Shown: positions 13,660-24,317 of the stretch, in pieces
Layout: the number at the start of each line of letters is the position of its first letter
How positions within the stretch are numbered: position 1 is the first letter of the stretch
From: a virus
Virus record (IMG/VR): IMGVR_UViG_3300047445_000153
Location: 17,906 to 81,905 of that record
DNA: 64,000 bases
Direction: 5' to 3' (one strand)
Notes under the pieces: model-generated
Told to the model about the DNA's origin: nothing
Database searches by the model: none
Seen by the model: the letters and a program-made list of their open reading frames with translations, nothing else
Program-made: the position numbers and the translations under genes

Positions 13660-14121
13660 ATGCCGCACACAATCTCTGACGTTACGATCAAGTCAACCCT
13701 GCTCGACGACGACAGCTTCCCGGCGTTGCTCTACGGCGACGCCCCAGCTGGCTTCTCGAAGTTCCAAAACTTCTTCGCGGGTGACTACACCTACAAGAAC
13801 GCGATCTTCCGCCTCGGGATGGAGTCGGAGAACGGGGACCGGGGCATCATCGAAAAGCTCCAGCTGGTCGTCGATGTCCCCGACATCTTCGACCGGGGCT
13901 CGAAGATCATCAACGTGGCGAACAGCGTGCACGTCAACTTCAACCGCACGTTCCACATTCCACCCACGATGGTCGTGGCCGTGGAGAGCGCGAGTGATGC
14001 GTGCGTGGCGCGCGTGGTGGACGGCTCGGTGACGAAGACGGGCTTCGACTGCTACCTCGAACGTACGGTGGACAAGGCGAAGATCACAGGCGCGCTGACC
14101 TGGGCTGCGCACGCGTACTAA
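13660..14121 (+). CDS. Tail-tip accessory protein, possible carbohydrate-binding domain
   Basis: 153 residues starting at the ATG at 13660, three bases after the J-like stop. The second half (FNRTFHIPPTMVVAVESASD ... TKTGFDCYLERTVDKAKITG) has the pattern of an H-type-lectin-like beta sandwich found in several phage tail proteins: a PP-containing strand, then a GF strand, and a terminal aromatic strand. This assignment is tentative. It is the last gene before the fibre transcription unit. Confidence 0.5.
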   Translation: MPHTISDVTIKSTLLDDDSFPALLYGDAPAGFSKFQNFFAGDYTYKNAIFRLGMESENGDRGIIEKLQLVVDVPDIFDRGSKIINVANSVHVNFNRTFHIPPTMVVAVESASDACVARVVDGSVTKTGFDCYLERTVDKAKITGALTWAAHAY

Positions 14122-14160
14122 AACTCCTTGGGCGCGCTGGCCCGCGCCCGTAAAATTCGG
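14121..14160 (+). promoter_or_regulatory. Putative late promoter of the fibre/radical SAM unit
   Basis: TTGGGC (14128-14133), 17-bp spacer, TAAAAT (14151-14156), preceded by AAACTC and followed by TCGG and a CACCACCAC run at 14172. The lysis operon has a matching set at 18238-18292. The spacer also forms a GGGCGCG/CGCGCCC hairpin, so it could partly terminate the tail operon instead. Confidence 0.5.
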
Positions 14161-14180
14161 GAACCAGAGGACACCACCAC

Positions 14181-15662
14181 ATGCAGCAATACACTCAGAT
14201 TCCAGACAGTGCGCGAGTCTCCGACTCGCTGCTGCCGCTCCTGAATAACGACCAGACCGCGATCTCGCGCAACTCCGGCCCGAACTTCCCGACCGTGGGG
14301 CTGGTCGTTGGCATGCCCTACTACAGCACGAGCCAGAACAAGCTCTATCGGCTGTCGAGCGTGTCACCGCTCACGTGGGTGGTCGAGCTGGATTACACGC
14401 GTCCCTTCGCCTATCAGGACAGCGTGGACGCGGCTAACGCGAACGCGAACGCGCGGGTGTCGCGAGCTGGCGACACCATGACCGGTTACCTGACGCTGGT
14501 CAACGACCCGGTCTCCGCGCTGCACGCCGCGTCGAAACGGTACGTCGATGCACAGGCAACGAATGCAATCAACAGCGCGAACTCGCGGGTCTCGCGTGGC
14601 GGCGACAGCATGTCGGGGTTCCTGACGCTGTACACCGATCCACAGCAGCCCTACCACGCCGCGACGAAGAACTACGTCGACTACCTCTACAACGTGGTGC
14701 AGGGCGCGAAGCTGAACCGTAACGGTGACACGCTCGGAGAGGTCTTCAACAACGGCTGGTACCGCTCGAACGGCGTGACGGGCTGGTACAGCCAGACCTT
14801 CGGCGGCGGGATCTTCATGCAGGATACGTCCAACGTGCGTATCTACGGCGGCAAGGGCTTCAGCACCGACTGGCACTCGCTCGAACAGGGCACGGGGATG
14901 ATTTGGACGAGTGGCTACGGCTGGCTTCACGAGCGCTTCGCGTCCAAGAGCGCCGAGGGCGCCCTGACTTCGGTCGGTACGCTGAACAGCCAGCCGAGTG
15001 GCGTCGTGCTGCCGCAGGCTTTCTACCTCCAGAAGAGCGGCAGTCAGGTGCAGCTGGTGCGTACGCTCGGCAACTGCAACTGCAACTGCGCCTGCACGTG
15101 CTTCCCGGCTGGGACGCGGATCCTGATGGGCGACCGCAAGACGTGGCGCACCGTTGAGTCGCTGATGGTTGGCGAGATCGTCATGACCCCCACCGGCCCC
15201 GAGCCGATCATCGAGATCGAGACGCCGTTCCTCGGCGAGCGCTCGATGTGCATGTTCGCCGACGGCTCGCTCAAGTGGACCGATGACCATGCGTTCTGGA
15301 CGCGCCGCGACGGCGTGGAAGGCTTCGCGGTGGTCGACAAGGCCTCGTTCATGAACGGGGTCCATGCGGGCGTCGTGAAGGGCCTGAATGACCATGACGA
15401 CCTACTGGAGCTGAACGACAAGCTCGACGAGTTCGCGCATCTCGATGGCTGGAAGAAGAAACGCGTGTTCCGCTACCCCGCCCCCGCCGAGACCAAGGTC
15501 TACCTGCCGATCGTCGGTGGCTCCCACATGATCATCGCGGAAGGCTTCGTCGTCAGCGCTGGCATGGACGAAGCCACCTTCGACTACGACAGCTTCGAGT
15601 GGAAGGGCATGGCCCTCGCCCACGTGCCGCTCAACAAGGAGCTGTTCAATGCTCGTCCATAA
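14181..15662 (+). CDS. Short tail fibre with C-terminal Hint (Hedgehog/intein) autoprocessing domain
   Basis: 493 residues. Residues about 80-200 carry two tail-fibre repeats (RVSRAGDTMTGYLTL..AASKRYVD and RVSRGGDSMSGFLTL..AATKNYVD). Residues 298-307 read GNCNCNCACTC: cysteines at 299, 301, 303, 305 and 307. Cys307 begins a Hint domain (CFPAGTRILMGD, TVESLMVGEIVMTPTGPEPI). It has the block-B T-x-x-H at Thr367-His370 (KWTDDHAFW) and a late HMIIAEGFVV at 449-458. In Hint domains the first Cys makes a thioester with the preceding residue, so cleavage before Cys307 would leave a fibre ending in CNCNCACT. No splicing C-extein junction (His-Asn then Cys/Ser/Thr) is seen. The gene overlaps its downstream neighbour by 14 bases. 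What the cleavage achieves is not known. Confidence 0.82.
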   Translation: MQQYTQIPDSARVSDSLLPLLNNDQTAISRNSGPNFPTVGLVVGMPYYSTSQNKLYRLSSVSPLTWVVELDYTRPFAYQDSVDAANANANARVSRAGDTMTGYLTLVNDPVSALHAASKRYVDAQATNAINSANSRVSRGGDSMSGFLTLYTDPQQPYHAATKNYVDYLYNVVQGAKLNRNGDTLGEVFNNGWYRSNGVTGWYSQTFGGGIFMQDTSNVRIYGGKGFSTDWHSLEQGTGMIWTSGYGWLHERFASKSAEGALTSVGTLNSQPSGVVLPQAFYLQKSGSQVQLVRTLGNCNCNCACTCFPAGTRILMGDRKTWRTVESLMVGEIVMTPTGPEPIIEIETPFLGERSMCMFADGSLKWTDDHAFWTRRDGVEGFAVVDKASFMNGVHAGVVKGLNDHDDLLELNDKLDEFAHLDGWKKKRVFRYPAPAETKVYLPIVGGSHMIIAEGFVVSAGMDEATFDYDSFEWKGMALAHVPLNKELFNARP

Positions 15663-16350
15663 AAGCCTGATCCCCACGGATCTCTCAGAAGAAGACGCCG
15701 CTCGAATCACCGACATCGTCACCGTGCTGCCTACGGAGACGGGCTTCGTCTTGCAGTGCGCATCGCTCAGCCTCTACTGGCAGTTCAACATGAACCTCGT
15801 CCAGTATGGTAACGACATCATGTACTTGACCCGCACGCGCGGAGGTACGTGGGCCGTGATGTGGGCGACGGATCTGCACGAGTCGCGTGACAGCTGGTCT
15901 GAGGCGATGCTGCGCAAGAACGTCGATGAGTTCCGCCCGGTGGTGATGATCGGCATCAACCCCGAGAAGACCGACTACACGGCGATCCTCTTCTGCAACA
16001 CACGCGAACCGAACAACCCGAACCCCACGGTCGACAACTCGACGGACAGCGGCGACATGGCCATGAAGCGGTTGATGCCGAGCATCGAACCGCTGCTGCA
16101 ACGGCACTGGGCCAAGCACAAGCTACTCAAGCACACGAAGACGAACGACTCGCTCGCGGCGCTTGAGGCCCAGGTCGATCTGCTGACGAGCTGGTTGATC
16201 GAGCTGCTGCCTGCTGAGAAGGTGCAGCGACTCATCGATGCGGGCGTGCTGACGCTGAAGGATGAAGCCGCTACCCTCGACGACGTGGTGGCCTTCAAGA
16301 CAGCCTTGCGAGAACGCCAGCAGGTCTACCTCACCACCATCGGCAAATGA
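15649..16350 (+). CDS. Unrecognised protein of the fibre-maturation unit
   Basis: 233 residues, not recognised. Residues 1-125 look mixed alpha/beta (LQCASLSLYWQFNMNLVQYG, GGTWAVMWATDLHESRDSW, EFRPVVMIGINPEKTDYTAI). Residues 140-233 are mostly helical (LEAQVDLLTSWLIELLPAEK). It overlaps the fibre gene by 14 bases and the radical SAM gene by 4 (ATGA), so the three are almost certainly co-translated. A chaperone or a recognition partner presenting the fibre to the enzyme is the simplest guess. No signal peptide, membrane segment or metal motif is visible. Confidence 0.6.
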   Translation: MLVHKSLIPTDLSEEDAARITDIVTVLPTETGFVLQCASLSLYWQFNMNLVQYGNDIMYLTRTRGGTWAVMWATDLHESRDSWSEAMLRKNVDEFRPVVMIGINPEKTDYTAILFCNTREPNNPNPTVDNSTDSGDMAMKRLMPSIEPLLQRHWAKHKLLKHTKTNDSLAALEAQVDLLTSWLIELLPAEKVQRLIDAGVLTLKDEAATLDDVVAFKTALRERQQVYLTTIGK

Positions 16351-17693
16351 CAACCTTCGTCCTCAAAACGGCCGAGGGCCGCGACTTCTTCTACAACAAC
16401 ATGCGCAGCACGCTGGTCGACGCCTGCACGGGTCGCCCCGTGCTCGCTCCGCGAGAGGTTGACACCCCTCGAAGCCCTGCCCCGCAAGACTTCCGCAAGT
16501 CGGAAACGATCCGGACGCTGAAGATCCAGATGGGTCTGTCGTGCAACTACAGCTGCGAGTATTGCTCGCAGCGGTTCGTGCCGCACGCGGAGCCCACCGG
16601 CCCCTACTCGGTCGATCACTTCATCTCGCGCCTGAGCTGGAACGCCTCGCTCGCGGACGACGCCACGGTGGAGTTCTGGGGTGGCGAGCCACTGGTCTAC
16701 TGGAAGACGCTGGTCCCGCTCGTCGAGCAGCTGCGCATTCGCTACCCGGCGCTGACCTTCAAGATGATCACGAACGGGTCGCTGCTCGATCCGATGAAGG
16801 CGAGCTGGCTGATCGCGAATGGCTTCCACATCGGCATCTCGCACGACGGTCCTGGCCAAGCCGCACGCGGGCCGGACCCGCTCGATGATCCCGAGAAGCG
16901 CGAGGCGATCCTGATGCTGTACCGGCGCCTGCGACCGCTCGGGCGTATCAGTTTTAATGCAATGCTGCACTCGCAAAATACATCGCGTGCGGCGATACAA
17001 CAGTTCTTCGTCCGGCTGACGAACGACGCGGAAGTGCCCATCGGCGAGGGCATGTTTGTGGATGCCTACGACGAGGGCGGCAGGGGTATGTCTTTCCTTG
17101 ACGCTCAGGATCACGTCGACTATCGTCGCAAGGCGTTCGACGAGCTGAAGGCGGGGATGGCTCTCAATTTCAGCTCGGTGACCGAGAAGATCTACGACTT
17201 CGCAGACTCCTTGCAAACGGGTCGCTTGGCGTCCACCGTTGGCCAGAAGTGCGGTTCCGATCGCTCCGACAGCCTCACGGTGACGCTCGACGGCGATGTC
17301 CTCACGTGCCAGAACGTATCGGCTGTCTCCGTCGCCCCGAACGGAAAGAGCCACCGGGCTGGCTCGATCGAAGACATGGCTGCGGTGCGCGTGCAGTCCT
17401 CGCGCCACTGGTCGACCCGCGAGCACTGTTCCAGCTGCCCTGTCGTGCAGCTATGCAAAGGCTCTTGCATGTTCCTCGAAGGCGATCTCTGGGATGTCAC
17501 GTGCGATACCGCCTACAGCGATAACGTCGTGTTCCTGGCGACTGCCCTCTTGGAGCTGACAGGCTGTACGTTGCAACGCATCGAGCCGATGACTGGTTCG
17601 CTGCCCGAAACCCGCCAGAGTGTCTTCGGACCTCTGGCGCATAAGCGGACCACCACCCGCAAAATCATACGGATCGAAACGGAAAAATCATGA
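16347..17693 (+). CDS. Radical SAM/SPASM peptide- or protein-modifying enzyme
   Basis: 448 residues. The radical SAM cluster motif is C66-x3-C70-x2-C73 (CNYSCEYC), followed by WGGEPL (the GGE SAM-binding motif) and MITNGSLL. The C-terminal SPASM domain is complete: C302, then GDVLTC ending at C321, and C361-x2-C364-x5-C370-x3-C374 with C386. This seven-cysteine layout binds two auxiliary 4Fe-4S clusters in enzymes such as anSME and RiPP maturases. Substrates of such enzymes are usually encoded next door. The adjacent fibre with its CNCNCACTC segment is the obvious candidate. Radical SAM enzymes of this type are rare in phage tail modules. The start overlaps the upstream stop (ATGA). Confidence 0.9.
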   Translation: MTTFVLKTAEGRDFFYNNMRSTLVDACTGRPVLAPREVDTPRSPAPQDFRKSETIRTLKIQMGLSCNYSCEYCSQRFVPHAEPTGPYSVDHFISRLSWNASLADDATVEFWGGEPLVYWKTLVPLVEQLRIRYPALTFKMITNGSLLDPMKASWLIANGFHIGISHDGPGQAARGPDPLDDPEKREAILMLYRRLRPLGRISFNAMLHSQNTSRAAIQQFFVRLTNDAEVPIGEGMFVDAYDEGGRGMSFLDAQDHVDYRRKAFDELKAGMALNFSSVTEKIYDFADSLQTGRLASTVGQKCGSDRSDSLTVTLDGDVLTCQNVSAVSVAPNGKSHRAGSIEDMAAVRVQSSRHWSTREHCSSCPVVQLCKGSCMFLEGDLWDVTCDTAYSDNVVFLATALLELTGCTLQRIEPMTGSLPETRQSVFGPLAHKRTTTRKIIRIETEKS

Positions 17694-18079
17694 GCACACC
17701 GCAAGCACCACAGCCACAGCAAGACCCGATGCCCCTCATCCGCACGTTGCAGGCGCAGCGCAACATGGCGCTCGACCAGCTGGCCGACACCAGCGCCGCG
17801 CTCGAACACGTGCAAGCCGTACTGCGTGGCACGCAGGAACTGGCCGCGAAGCAGCAGTCGGAGATCGACGATCTGAACATGCGGATGGGCAAGACGCTCG
17901 CCGCGCTGGCGAGCATGCAAGACTGCAACGCGAAGCTCACCGAGCAGAACCTCGATCTGCAAATCGATCTGGACGAGGCCCGTCGAGTTCCGGACGCGGA
18001 GATCGCGGTGGCCGTAGAGTCACCGGCAGGCGTGCTGACGCTGCCGGTGGCTTATCCGTCTGCTTCGGACGAGCTGTAA
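17690..18079 (+). CDS. Coiled-coil protein of the fibre-maturation unit
   Basis: 129 residues, ATGA overlap with the radical SAM gene. N-terminal Pro/Gln-rich 12 residues, then a long amphipathic helix (about 15-105) with heptad character, ending in a hydrophobic tail. No catalytic motif. It has two Met/Cys-poor halves and one Cys (QDCNAKL). It could be structural or an assembly factor; function unknown. Confidence 0.6.
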   Translation: MSTPQAPQPQQDPMPLIRTLQAQRNMALDQLADTSAALEHVQAVLRGTQELAAKQQSEIDDLNMRMGKTLAALASMQDCNAKLTEQNLDLQIDLDEARRVPDAEIAVAVESPAGVLTLPVAYPSASDEL

Positions 18080-18081
18080 TC

Positions 18082-18168
18082 ATGCCCGTCTTCTTGGTCA
18101 TGTGGCTGTTCTGGTCGGTGATCCTGTCGCCGACCCGGCCTTCGGGATACGACCTGCCGAAGCCCTGA
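18082..18168 (+). CDS. 28-residue hydrophobic peptide
   Basis: ATG two bases after the coiled-coil gene stop. The peptide MPVFLVMWLFWSVILSPTRP ends YDLPKP and consists of one hydrophobic segment and a polar tail. It lies just before the terminator at 18194. It may be a small membrane peptide. Coding status rests on position and composition only. Confidence 0.4.
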   Translation: MPVFLVMWLFWSVILSPTRPSGYDLPKP

Positions 18169-18193
18169 TACCACGCTGGTTCAAGCTGGTTCC

Positions 18194-18219
18194 AAAGGAC
18201 ACCGAACGGTGTCCTTTTT
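18194..18219 (+). terminator. Strong rho-independent terminator of the fibre unit
   Basis: Perfect 11-bp stem AAAGGACACCG / CGGTGTCCTTT with an AA loop at 18205-18206, running into TTTTTC. It separates the fibre/radical SAM unit from the lysis operon. Confidence 0.9.
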
Positions 18220-19609: not shown

Positions 19610-20103
19610 AAATCACCTTGATCGTTTCAGCCATAGTCGGATTGCTTGGGACTGCTATGGGATGGGGACTCACGCACGGTTATTACCGCAGCGTGCTGGC
19701 TGAGAACGCATTGGCCCTCTCTCAAGCGCAGCAACGCGCGGATTCACTCGCGCTCTTCGCACAAACCCAGTCGACGCTGGTCATCAACCAGATCGACGCG
19801 ACCTATCAGGAAAAGCTCCATGAACAAGATGCTCTCCACGCTCGCGATCTCGCTGATGTTCGTTCCGGTGCTCTGCGGTTGCGGGACTCCGGCGCCAAGT
19901 GCCCCGCCCAAGTTTCAGCTGCCCCCGGCGCCAGCGTCGGTGACGGTCAAGCAGGAGCCGAACTTTCGGCTGCGGCTACTGAATTTCTTCTCAGTGAAGC
20001 CGAACGAGCTGACCGCGTCGCCATTCAGCTTGGCGCCTGCCAACAAGTAATCGAGTCCGACCGCAAGACCCTTGACCAACTCTTCAACAGGATTTCTGAA
20101 TGA
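19606..20103 (+). CDS. Rz: Inner-membrane spanin (Rz-like)
   Basis: 165 residues from a GTG start that overlaps the holin stop (GTGA). A single N-terminal membrane anchor (ITLIVSAIVGLLGTAMGWGL) is followed by a long helical periplasmic domain, as in Rz. The Rz1 lipoprotein gene is nested inside it in the +1 frame. Spanins join inner and outer membranes and fuse them in the last step of lysis. Confidence 0.88.
   Translation: MKITLIVSAIVGLLGTAMGWGLTHGYYRSVLAENALALSQAQQRADSLALFAQTQSTLVINQIDATYQEKLHEQDALHARDLADVRSGALRLRDSGAKCPAQVSAAPGASVGDGQAGAELSAAATEFLLSEAERADRVAIQLGACQQVIESDRKTLDQLFNRISE
19820..20050 (+). CDS. Rz1: Outer-membrane spanin lipoprotein (Rz1-like), nested in Rz
   Basis: 76 residues wholly within the Rz gene in another frame. 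MNKMLSTLAISLMFVPVLCG leads to the lipobox Leu-Cys-Gly-Cys. The mature part is Pro-rich (TPAPSAPPKFQLPPAPAS), which is typical of Rz1. The predicted mature protein is anchored to the outer membrane and pairs with Rz. Confidence 0.85.
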   Translation: MNKMLSTLAISLMFVPVLCGCGTPAPSAPPKFQLPPAPASVTVKQEPNFRLRLLNFFSVKPNELTASPFSLAPANK

Positions 20104-23100
20104 CAACGAATACCGGCGTTCCAACAAACCCGGATGGCCAGACACTGGCGCTCGTCGTGGCGCCAGTCCTCTCCACCACGCCGCACGCTGCGAGCAAGAT
20201 CCTGTACGGGTCTGGCGCACCTTCGGCTTCCATCGGCGTTGACGGTGACTTCTACCGCAACCTCGACAACGACGACATGTATGGCCCGAAACTGGCTGGG
20301 GCATGGCCGGATGGGTACTCCATCCGCGGCTTCCAGGGGGACCCCGGTCCGGCTGGACCTGCTGGTCTTCTGGACCCCGAACAACTGGACGACATCGAGA
20401 CGTCGGCCGAGGCAGCGGCAGCGAGCGCAGCGGCATCGGCGCAAAGCGCCGTAGCAGCTGCGGCAAGCGCGACGGCGGCGAACACGTCGAAGGTCGCAGC
20501 GGGCACGAGCGCAACAAACGCCGCAGCCTCCGAGACGGCCTCGAACGCGAGCAAGGTCGCGGCAGCAGCGAGCGCAACCGCAGCATCTGGATTCGCCACG
20601 CAGGCTGCATCTAGCAACACTGGTGCGACCACTGCTGCGACAGACTCGGCCGCAAGCGCAACCGCCGCGAACGCCTCGAAGATCGCAGCAGGGATCTCGG
20701 AAACGAACGCAGCCGCCTCAGCCGTGGCAGCGAACACGTCGAAGGTCGCAGCGGGCGTCTCGGAAGGCAACGCGGCAGCAGCTGCTGTCGCAGCGGGCAT
20801 CGCTCGGGATGAAGCACAGACGGCAGCGCAGCAGGCCCTGCAAGGCGCCGCGCCGATCGTGTCCCCTGCTTTCACCGGCAACCCGACCGCACCGACACCG
20901 GCGACTTCCGACAACGATACTTCGGTCGCGACCACCGCGTTCGTGAAGGCAGCAATCGCAGCAGCGGGTGGTGGCGGCGGCGGCGCAGTGTCGACCGTCG
21001 CGGGCCGCACGGGCGACATCCTGCTCACAATCGCAGACGTGACGGGCGGCGCACCGCTGGCCTCCCCCACCTTCACGGGAGATCCGAAGGCACCGACCCC
21101 GGCAACCAGCGACAACGACACGTCGATCGCGACCACCGCGTTCGTGAAAGCGCAGGCCTACGCCCCGCTCTTGTCGCCTGCCCTGACGGGTACGCCGACT
21201 GCACCGACTGCGGCGGCTGGGACCAGCACAACCCAGCTGGCCACCACCGCGTTCGTCACCGCAGCAATGGCAGCGGGCGCAGGCAGCGGCGATGCGGGTG
21301 TGCGCTTCGTCGAGTCGTTCCCCTCGGGCGGCACCGACGACACGACCCAGCTGACCAACGCGCTCGCGTGGCTTCAGGCTGCTCCGCGTCGCACGCTGGC
21401 GATGCAGCACAACAAGGCCTACACGCTCGGCCACCAGATCACGGTGCAAGGCGCGTCGTGGTTCCGCATCGAAGTCAACGGCGCGACCATCAAGGCAGCG
21501 AATGGCATGCCCTGCCAGTTCGGTGACTGGATGCTGAACTTCGTGAGCTGTACGGATGGTGTGATCGTCGACCTGAACTTGGACGGCAACCGCGCGAACC
21601 GCCCGGTGGTCGTTGGTCTGCAAGAGGCACACAACATCCGCGTGTGGAACAACTGCAAGCGCATCACGTTCGTGCGTACCCAGTCCGACAATGGGTGCTG
21701 TGACGGCTTCTACATCGGTGCGGACGACGTGACGAACCTGTCCACGTTCCCGACCGACATCCGGCAGATCGATTGCGGCGCAAACAACTCGTTCCGCAAC
21801 GGGCTGTCGCTGATCAACTCGGTCAACTTCGAGGACTACAGAGGCGCCTACAACAACTCGGTCGGCACGGCGCCTGAAGATGGTGTGGATTGCGAACCGA
21901 ACGGTGACGTGGCTTCTGGTGACCTGGGCAACATCAACCCGCGCTTCTACCACACGACGGCCAACGGCAACAGCGGTCTCGGGTTCCAGATCTTCCTCGA
22001 CTCCAACCACGGTGTGAAGCTGTACGACGTCACGGCCAGCGGCAACATCTCGGGTGCAGTCAGCGCATTCCGCGGTGGTGTCGAGATCTACGGCATCACG
22101 CTGGAAGGTAGGCCGGGGATGGATACCGACCGGGGGGTGATCGACTTGGCGGGTGCTGGCGCGGGCTTGAGCGTCATCAAGGACGTCGTGGCGCGTGACT
22201 ACATCACGAACGACAACGACCTCCGTCCGATTGTCTTCGTCGACGTCGACGTGGCGGGACCTGTCACGGTCGATAACGTGAAGACGTTCGACTGTGACTG
22301 CCCGATCCTGATTGCCAACTCCCCGGTTGAGCTGGCGCAGAACCTCGAAGCGCATGGCCAGATGGGTGGCTACACCGTCAAGCTGATGGCGGGGGCTGAC
22401 CAGTCTACGCTCAAGGGCATCACGGCCCACGACGGCCAGCTGGGCGTGTACGTCAACGCACCGGATGTCTCGGTGAACGACGTGAAGCTCCACAATCTGG
22501 AAGTCACCGCCCCGTTGATCGTGTTCGACACGGGCGCGCTGCGGCCCTCGCTCGACGGTGTCGAGCTGTTCCAAGACGCGGGCGTGCCGTCCGGCCAGAT
22601 CGGGGTGTCCTTCGCACAGGCTCCGGTACGCGCGACCAACATCGTCGGTCACGTGCGGACTGGCACGGCCTGGACGCCGACGACGCTCATCTCGTTCGCA
22701 GGCGGCACCACGGGCTCGCTGATCGCCAACAACTCGCCGTCGACGGTCAGCTCGGGTGTGGCTCCGCTCGCCTCCCCGGCTTTCACTGGCAACCCCACCG
22801 CGCCCACCCCGGCGACGTCCGACAACGATACATCGGTCGCGACGACCGCTTTCGTGAAGGCGGCAATCGCCGCAGCTGGCACGGGTAGTGGCGCACCGCT
22901 CGACTCCCCGGTCTTCACCGGCAACCCGACCGCACCGACACCGGCCACGTCGGACAACGACACGAGCCTCGCGACGACGGCGTTCGTGAAAGCGCAGGCG
23001 TACGCACCGCTCGCCTCCCCCGCCTTCACCGGCAACCCGACCGCGCCCACTCCGAGCGCTGGTGACAACGACACGTCGGTCGCGACGACGGCCTTTGTCA

Positions 23101-24317
23101 CGGCTGCGATCGCAGCTGCGGGCACGGGTGGTGGCGGCACGACCACGGTGCGGCAGACGGCGCTGCGCAACTGGAAGAAGTCGAACACCAGCAAGATCGC
23201 GGCGCTCATGGGCCGTGGCCAGTCTGGTTTCGGCCGTGGCCGGATCCTCGGCATCGGCGACTCGTTCACGGCGGGGTTCGCGGGAGCAGGCACGTCCTTC
23301 ACGAACGGACGCTCGCAGTCGTTCCTCACGCATCTCGCCCGAGCGATGGCCGCACGGGGCATGAAGGCGACGGCGGATTGGGCGGTGGGTGACGGCAACT
23401 CGGGCGACGTGCCGCTGGTCTACGATCCGCGACTGGTGCTCAGCGGGGGTGCGAGCCTGCTGGATACCTCTTTCAAGTGCCTCGGTGGCAGCGGCTGGAC
23501 GATGGATGGTACCGGCAACCGGATCACCTTCACGCCGGTGGACGCGGCAGGCGTGGCGATTGCGTTCGACACGGTCGAAGTGCTGGTGATGTGTAACAAC
23601 AACACCGGGGTGTCGGGCAACTTCGACGTGTTCTACAACGGCAATTTCACCACGCCTGCGCAGACGGTCACCAGCAACGACATCATGGGCGTGAAGAAGG
23701 TCACGCTCACGGTGCCCGGTGCGGCTGGCACGACGGCGAACTCGGTGACGTTCCAGCGCAAGACCAATACGACGTTCATCGCGGCGGTCGGCACGCGGGT
23801 TGCATCCAAACCCGGCATCGAGATCATCAACGCGGGTAGCACGGGCACGCCGCTGGCGACGTATGCAGCAGCCCCCGGCTCTACCAGCGGCTCGGGTGAC
23901 TCGAACACGTGGAACACGCGTGCAGCGGCGAACGTGCTGATGGACACGAACGCGGTCAACGTGACGTTTATCAACGGCTGGTACAACGACAAGGATGCAG
24001 CCTCGACGATCGCCGCCACGCAGACGCAGCTCGCCAACCTGATCACCGCCGCGAAGGCTTGGGGTGATGTGGTCTTCATCGGCTACGCGCCGCTCGACCC
24101 GAGCGACACCACGCTGACCCTCTACAACCAGTGGCAGGATGCGATGTATGCGACGTGTATCGCCGCTGACATCCCGATCATCGATCCGCCCGCACTGCTG
24201 CCGGTGTATGCAACCGGCGTGTCGTACGGGCTGTACGGTGACTCGCTGCACTTGAACGGTTCCGGCCATGCGCTCATCGCGCGATCCATCCTCGAAGCTA
24301 TGAGTGACATCGCGTAA
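20100..24317 (+). CDS. Tail spike with beta-helix and C-terminal SGNH (GDSL) hydrolase domain
   Basis: 1405 residues, ATGA overlap with Rz. Order: N-terminal attachment region (1-80), short collagen-like GDPGPAGPAG, Ala-rich coiled coil (about 100-250), three repeats of the type PAFTGNPTAPTPATSDNDTS..ATTAFVK (about 255-385), a right-handed beta-helix-like region (about 395-880; many N-G turns, NGATIKAANGM, LDLNLDG-type strands), three more of the same repeats (890-1000), and an SGNH hydrolase (1045-1405) with GIGDSF (Asp1054, Ser1055) and DSLHLNG (Asp1381, His1384). Such domains typically cut or deacylate capsule or O-antigen. Hence this is a likely surface-polysaccharide receptor and depolymerase. 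It sits in the lysis operon rather than with the J-like gene. Confidence 0.87.
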   Translation: MTTNTGVPTNPDGQTLALVVAPVLSTTPHAASKILYGSGAPSASIGVDGDFYRNLDNDDMYGPKLAGAWPDGYSIRGFQGDPGPAGPAGLLDPEQLDDIETSAEAAAASAAASAQSAVAAAASATAANTSKVAAGTSATNAAASETASNASKVAAAASATAASGFATQAASSNTGATTAATDSAASATAANASKIAAGISETNAAASAVAANTSKVAAGVSEGNAAAAAVAAGIARDEAQTAAQQALQGAAPIVSPAFTGNPTAPTPATSDNDTSVATTAFVKAAIAAAGGGGGGAVSTVAGRTGDILLTIADVTGGAPLASPTFTGDPKAPTPATSDNDTSIATTAFVKAQAYAPLLSPALTGTPTAPTAAAGTSTTQLATTAFVTAAMAAGAGSGDAGVRFVESFPSGGTDDTTQLTNALAWLQAAPRRTLAMQHNKAYTLGHQITVQGASWFRIEVNGATIKAANGMPCQFGDWMLNFVSCTDGVIVDLNLDGNRANRPVVVGLQEAHNIRVWNNCKRITFVRTQSDNGCCDGFYIGADDVTNLSTFPTDIRQIDCGANNSFRNGLSLINSVNFEDYRGAYNNSVGTAPEDGVDCEPNGDVASGDLGNINPRFYHTTANGNSGLGFQIFLDSNHGVKLYDVTASGNISGAVSAFRGGVEIYGITLEGRPGMDTDRGVIDLAGAGAGLSVIKDVVARDYITNDNDLRPIVFVDVDVAGPVTVDNVKTFDCDCPILIANSPVELAQNLEAHGQMGGYTVKLMAGADQSTLKGITAHDGQLGVYVNAPDVSVNDVKLHNLEVTAPLIVFDTGALRPSLDGVELFQDAGVPSGQIGVSFAQAPVRATNIVGHVRTGTAWTPTTLISFAGGTTGSLIANNSPSTVSSGVAPLASPAFTGNPTAPTPATSDNDTSVATTAFVKAAIAAAGTGSGAPLDSPVFTGNPTAPTPATSDNDTSLATTAFVKAQAYAPLASPAFTGNPTAPTPSAGDNDTSVATTAFVTAAIAAAGTGGGGTTTVRQTALRNWKKSNTSKIAALMGRGQSGFGRGRILGIGDSFTAGFAGAGTSFTNGRSQSFLTHLARAMAARGMKATADWAVGDGNSGDVPLVYDPRLVLSGGASLLDTSFKCLGGSGWTMDGTGNRITFTPVDAAGVAIAFDTVEVLVMCNNNTGVSGNFDVFYNGNFTTPAQTVTSNDIMGVKKVTLTVPGAAGTTANSVTFQRKTNTTFIAAVGTRVASKPGIEIINAGSTGTPLATYAAAPGSTSGSGDSNTWNTRAAANVLMDTNAVNVTFINGWYNDKDAASTIAATQTQLANLITAAKAWGDVVFIGYAPLDPSDTTLTLYNQWQDAMYATCIAADIPIIDPPALLPVYATGVSYGLYGDSLHLNGSGHALIARSILEAMSDIA

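Follow-up and report, generated by a model that had tools for sequence, protein, structure and literature searches.

A phage gene cassette joining a Hint-capped, cysteine-tailed tail fibre and a radical SAM/SPASM enzyme

Described counterparts and the phage cassette

The anSME, CteB/SCIFF and PapB maturases combine radical SAM and SPASM cysteines with a Cys-containing target encoded next door, and in these features they resemble the locus described here. However, the substrate proposed here is a phage structural protein, at its C-terminus, and no leader or cleavage signal is seen; to our knowledge, no virion protein has been described as a substrate of a radical SAM enzyme. A second likeness is to the Hint superfamily (hedgehog Hog, BIL domains and inteins), and comprises the fold, the first cysteine (Cys1), the T/SxxH motif and an N-terminal partner directly upstream, whereas here there is neither an HN/C-extein nor splicing, and the domain is proposed to be a cap over the Cys tail of a phage fibre. 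The T4 gp37 fibre has HxH iron sites, and T4-like HxH tips and gp38-type adhesins share with this locus the alternating ligand residues that end the fibre and a gene for a partner protein next to it; here, the residues are Cys rather than His, and a radical SAM enzyme is almost always present.

The same cassette occurs in Achromobacter phage JWF (genes 28-30; KP202971), which is cultured and UV-inducible (PMC3899368), and in phage 2-1, with 48% identity to the fibre and 55-58% identity to the enzyme studied here. In the JWF record, these genes are annotated separately, as a Hom_end-associated Hint protein, a hypothetical protein and an anaerobic sulfatase-maturating enzyme, and no functional link is drawn among them. 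Nothing on Hint together with radical SAM in phage tails, or on the NC tail, was found in the open literature (subscription papers and preprints lying outside the scope), and the novelty of a Hint-capped tail maturation scheme is provisional.

The window analyzed (64,000 nt) comes from a phage contig of 81.9 kb in IMG/VR, and the features of its cassette are given in Table 1. The radical SAM gene is two genes downstream of the fibre gene, and the genes overlap at 15649-15662, 16347-16350 and 17690-17693, as the first-pass annotation had reported. That annotation also described one promoter-like and one terminator signal shared by the genes: the terminator was recovered as a strong terminator-like hairpin, while the promoter was not, as the scan gave no promoter-like site ahead of the fibre start (14181) and the two matches found elsewhere were both near the shuffle mean. 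In addition to JWF and 2-1, relatives of the cassette occur in a Burkholderia paludis prophage and several IMG/VR phages; the coiled-coil-like protein has similarity in some close relatives only. Upstream of the cassette, a 153-aa ORF (13660-14121) shows weak similarity to H-type lectins (PF09458, at E 9.5e-4, which is below cut-off), and a gene in this position is also present in JWF and 2-1. A second fibre-like protein with repeats (1405 aa; 20100-24317) has a weak C-terminal match to GDSL lipase/acylhydrolase.

Table 1. Positions in the window of the cassette features.
Feature	Position	Strand	Remarks
Tail-fibre protein, 493 aa	14181..15662	+	PHROG tail fibre; 97-98% of length aligned to JWF and 2-1 homologues
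Cys tail NCNCNCACT, aa 298-306, proposed radical SAM substrate	15072..15098	+	Tail shared with relatives
Hint domain, aa 307-493, proposed self-cleaving cap	15099..15662	+	Family profile, predicted fold
Partner protein of family M, 233 aa	15649..16350	+	Beta domain and C-terminal helices
Radical SAM/SPASM enzyme, 448 aa	16347..17693	+	phrog_1802 1.9e-60; TIGR04085 above cutoff
CxxxCxxC radical SAM cluster motif, C66/C70/C73	16542..16565	+	
SPASM region, seven Cys, C302-C386	17250..17504	+	
Coiled-coil-like protein, 129 aa	17690..18079	+	Overlaps radical SAM gene
Intrinsic-terminator-like hairpin, 10-bp stem	18194..18217	+	Closes cassette

The fibre, its cysteine tail and the Hint domain

The fibre protein is composed of a conserved N-terminal fibre module, two repeats (RVSRxGDxMxGxLTL; aa 92-106 and 136-150), the Cys tail NCNCNCACT and the Hint domain, and its assignment as a phage tail fibre is given by PHROG tail fibre matches, these repeats and its place after tail-tip genes. 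Cysteines occur only at positions 299, 301, 303, 305, 307 and 357, and the string N-C-N-C-N-C-A-C-T directly precedes Hint Cys307; the alternating cysteines, the TxxH motif (367-370) and the two repeats that were first noticed in this DNA were all found in the ORF. The full-length fibre is 54 kDa (53 kDa in JWF), and the computed mass of the 306 residues that precede the Hint domain is 33.3 kDa.

The tail is encoded by mixed codons (AAC/AAT for Asn and TGC/TGT for Cys), which argues against a meaningless Cys run made by slippage of a DNA repeat and shows that it is the protein sequence that has been retained. Tails have 3-10 Cys, and in those selected through the enzyme the residue preceding a Cys is most often Asn (114), followed by Ala (38) and Asp (23), then Thr and Gln; the first three such positions are mostly Asn. 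Tail carriers are mostly 94-616 aa in length (only some are 72-95 aa), and many are fibre-like. Their bodies form several groups with no BLAST relation to one another at 1e-4, so the tail has the character of a portable tag. Neither in Pfam nor in NCBIfam was a curated family for the tail proteins found.

The window fibre alone is too divergent for a Hint match in Pfam, and the Hint call therefore rests on the family: Hom_end_hint is matched by 17 of 20 family members (best 7e-13), and the family profile matches the PI-SceI Hint domain at 2.6e-10. The AF2 model (pLDDT 85) resembles the Hint folds of BIL domains, inteins and hedgehog (Foldseek: BIL2, 1.4e-7; hedgehog 1at0, 8.9e-5). Cys1 and the His (here Cys307 and the His of T367xxH370) are invariant in the 20 members, while the Thr is Ser or Val in some (Val in L224-L229). 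The residues for N-terminal cleavage are kept, and a C-terminal HN or C-extein nucleophile is absent, with the protein ending soon after block G (GFVVSAG); the lack of the HN rules out a splicing intein.

Fibre-like proteins without a Hint domain lie upstream of enzyme relatives that are ∼45-55% identical, and end in the same string (...YNCNCNCNCTCK-stop in L011, ...YNCNCACDCC-stop in L015 and ...NCNCNCDCCC-stop in L174), which indicates that the tail is normally the C-terminus itself. Most tails are of this kind, at the very C-terminus with no Hint domain, yet they are accompanied by the same enzyme family. Where Hint domains occur, they start 0 to about 5 residues past the last tail-like Cys, and within one fibre family the Hint-bearing L013 and the Hint-less L034/L037 have the N-terminal module and tail in common, with the latter stopping exactly at the aligned start of the L013 Hint domain. 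On the radical SAM tree, Hint presence is scattered over branches and requires at least 6-7 changes, as expected of an accessory cap. These observations suggest that the Hint domain is an optional self-cleaving cap, whose predicted cleavage would make the tail the C-terminus. Exposure of the tail by Hint removal had been suggested for this fibre from the start; the idea gains from the homologues that end precisely at this point, and from the retention of cleavage residues without those for splicing.

Linkage of the tail to the radical SAM/SPASM enzyme

The enzyme has all 3+7 cluster cysteines, and its initial description as a complete radical SAM/SPASM protein with seven SPASM cysteines thus holds. 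C66, C70 and C73, together with SPASM residues C302, C321, C361, C364, C370, C374 and C386, are invariant in 15 diverse relatives, as is G316, and they follow the pattern CX9-15GX4C...CX2CX5CX3C...C. Profile matches in the PDB are to the sulfatase-maturating enzyme anSME (4k36) and to 5wgg, and the best NCBIfam neighbours are RiPP maturases, including PapB, with scores far below every equivalog cut-off shown (e.g., 57.7 bits against 340 for the PapB equivalog, NF047865). An identity as an anaerobic sulfatase-maturating enzyme, the annotation of JWF gene 30, was rejected (TIGR03942, 46.6 bits against 349.45), and no sulfatase match was found among the neighbouring genes scanned. The SPASM clusters place the enzyme among peptide- and protein-modifying enzymes.

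To score the pairing from the side of the enzyme, loci were chosen by enzyme similarity, irrespective of tails, with 5 kb of upstream sequence required, and a tail was called where a same-strand ORF ended in, or was capped after, an alternating Cys run. An upstream tail ORF was present in 15 of 17 viral loci and in 51 of 62 bacterial-genome loci (a mild bias applies, as the genome-scan query, A1, held some seeds first found via the tail scan), with 0-1 in each of the opposite-strand and downstream controls for these loci. One viral miss (L013) is Hint-capped and escaped the regular expression, and at the other (L012) the contig appears to begin inside the tail, read from another frame; L195 and L241 are also misses in this test. 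For non-redundant phage and prophage loci, an upstream same-strand tail was found at 39 of 47 (counting L011, where the ORF scored is a chance one and the true tail ORF lies 5.4 kb upstream, just beyond the limit), compared with 0/47 for the opposite strand (Fisher 1.5e-18) and 1/38 for the downstream side (Fisher 4e-15); the 8/47 loci that show no tail are the more distant ones. Further distant homologues in bacterial genomes (L243, L244, L246, L247, L250 and L252), with no detectable NC tail nearby, are possibly related cellular maturases with other substrates.

The reverse direction was covered by a blind scan of IMG/VR DNA for NCNCNCxC alone, which gave, among the matches listed, 69 in-frame C-terminal or pre-Hint ORFs (L149 is the record of L010). 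Within these listed matches, a radical SAM gene is in the locus for 52 of the 69, always downstream and on the same strand. Of the 17 left, nine have the gene on the full record, in fragmentary form or as a more distant homologue, and the contig ends within 1.2 kb for the remaining eight. Held-out scans for NCNCxCxC-stop added 90 new ORFs, of which 75 have a radical SAM gene (67 in the locus and 8 on the record, including one partial match at a contig edge) and 12 are on contigs that end within about 2.5 kb. The three with no radical SAM gene on the record are small proteins (67-70 aa, NCNCSCSC or NCNCQCPC), and off-frame control matches have the enzyme in 2/115. Taken together, both blind tail scans find a downstream enzyme for essentially all tails on contigs that continue. 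One apparent exception, L143, consists of a stop-to-stop frame of 41 residues in sequence that does not look coding. Unrelated small proteins (MKCKNCNCNCHCSLKEHGD...; L060, L061, L062, L063, L094 and L161), which have an N-terminal NCNCNC, further Cys later and no radical SAM gene, resemble small metal-binding proteins.

These linkage tests in both directions rule out a single-genome coincidence: the alternating [N/A/D]-Cys tail is genetically tied to the radical SAM/SPASM enzyme, and the two occur together repeatedly, in both phages and prophages, across Burkholderiales, Rhodospirillales, Rhodobacteraceae and other groups. The pairing of enzyme and tail put forward in the first-pass annotation, for which a lack of linkage in relatives had been named beforehand as grounds for rejection, is strongly supported by linkage across many lineages.

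The slot between the tail gene and the radical SAM gene is nearly always filled, by a protein of family M (30 loci, including the window) or family A (114 loci), never by both, and hhalign found no relation that would make them one family. The AF2 model of M (84 pLDDT) had no PDB or viral match at E<=0.001. Family A proteins are about 270 aa (e.g., L015:6431-7288, L187:5137-5964 and L235:5372-6277), with no Pfam match in five tested and a C-terminal part that looks Ig-like to our eye. Additionally, a 2OG-FeII_Oxy_5-like protein is encoded between the tail fibre and the radical SAM enzyme in 87 loci (e.g., L174:7399-7956, L187:5961-6548 and L147:4754-5392(-)), with none found in the window although most relatives have one, and may tailor the Cys tail as a second enzyme.

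A proposed route of fibre-tip maturation and its alternatives

We propose, with a probability of roughly 0.7, that the cassette serves to build the tail-fibre tip and to mature it chemically, with the radical SAM enzyme modifying the Cys tail and the Hint domain acting as a removable cap. Judging from sequence, the enzyme would modify the tail most likely via Cys or the preceding Asn/Asp/Ala, for example by thioether cross-links; the chemistry is a prediction, and thioether formation is favoured because PapB, taken as the analogue, joins Cys to Asp or Glu (PMC9413430). The enzyme may instead epimerise residues, form a different C-S or C-C link or assist in assembling a metal site, and the product may be unlike known thioethers. 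In this phage, the Hint domain would carry out an N-S acyl shift at Cys307 and, as it lacks the C-terminal residues for splicing, would release the 306-aa fibre by hydrolysis, uncovering a tail that most relatives encode already exposed. More speculatively, the modified tip, perhaps cross-linked or metal-binding, could stabilise the end of the trimeric fibre or contact the host, and the 233-aa protein (family A elsewhere) could be a tip partner or a substrate-presenting factor. We also lean, somewhat past even odds, toward a broader scheme of dedicated virion-protein modification, in which radical SAM enzymes, often with a 2OG oxygenase-like protein and sometimes with further radical SAM enzymes, remodel [N/A/D]-Cys repeats at fibre tips, with the self-removing Hint domain optional; the presence of several maturation enzymes in one cassette fits such a tailored modification. 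If the enzyme does modify the tail, phages would chemically finish the fibre region that probably makes contact with the host, by an unrecognised route that may bear on adsorption and would provide a new substrate class for radical SAM chemistry. The sequence pairing of enzyme and tail is itself simple and near-universal.

In a beta strand, every second side chain faces the same side, and a CxCxC run in a trimer would suit metal binding, such that the tip might be an unmodified metal-binding or disulfide structure, comparable to the iron sites of T4 gp37, with the enzyme acting on the M/A protein, which nearly always accompanies it, or on a host molecule. We consider this unlikely: M and A are unrelated occupants of one slot, whereas the tail and the enzyme are the constant pair, tails occur on unrelated bodies, and at some loci the tail ORF is 16-19 nt from the radical SAM gene with nothing between. 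A SPASM maturase beside a Cys-rich C-terminus is also the usual layout of a RiPP system, in which the tail would be a core peptide freed as a small diffusible toxin or signal and the fibre body would be its leader, and both the NCBIfam neighbours of the enzyme and the short tandem tail proteins (72-95 aa; L147, L228 and L251) agree with this. Such a reading is nevertheless quite improbable, given that the bodies are usually fibre-like (PHROG tail fibre) and lie inside tail gene clusters, and that no protease or exporter is evident in the cassettes listed. Furthermore, the Hint domain is C-terminal to the tail, so its cleavage would free the C-terminus of the tail and leave the tail joined to the body; instead of a small precursor with a leader and a released core, the tail is found at the retained end.

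Hint chemistry passes through a thioester, and the invariant Cys1 and His would permit the fibre to be joined covalently to itself or the host surface, as was suggested at first, akin to the cholesterol transfer of hedgehog. This suggestion is weakened, and now seems very improbable, because most relatives manage without a Hint domain: their tails end at the same point and can form no such thioester, yet have the same enzyme, and the coming and going of the Hint domain on the radical SAM tree indicates that the system needs none.

Several loci depart from the layout of the window. A second, shorter radical SAM gene lies beside the main one in L021:6798-7814, L209:6708-7796 and L120:5437-6459, and in L075 and L162 a short NC-tail protein is accompanied by three or four radical SAM genes. 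Short NC-tail proteins are encoded in tandem, two or three of them ahead of one radical SAM gene, in L147:6202-7114(-), L228:7482-7975, L251:5165-5629 and L101:758-2084, and in L101 one of these tandem proteins is Hint-capped.
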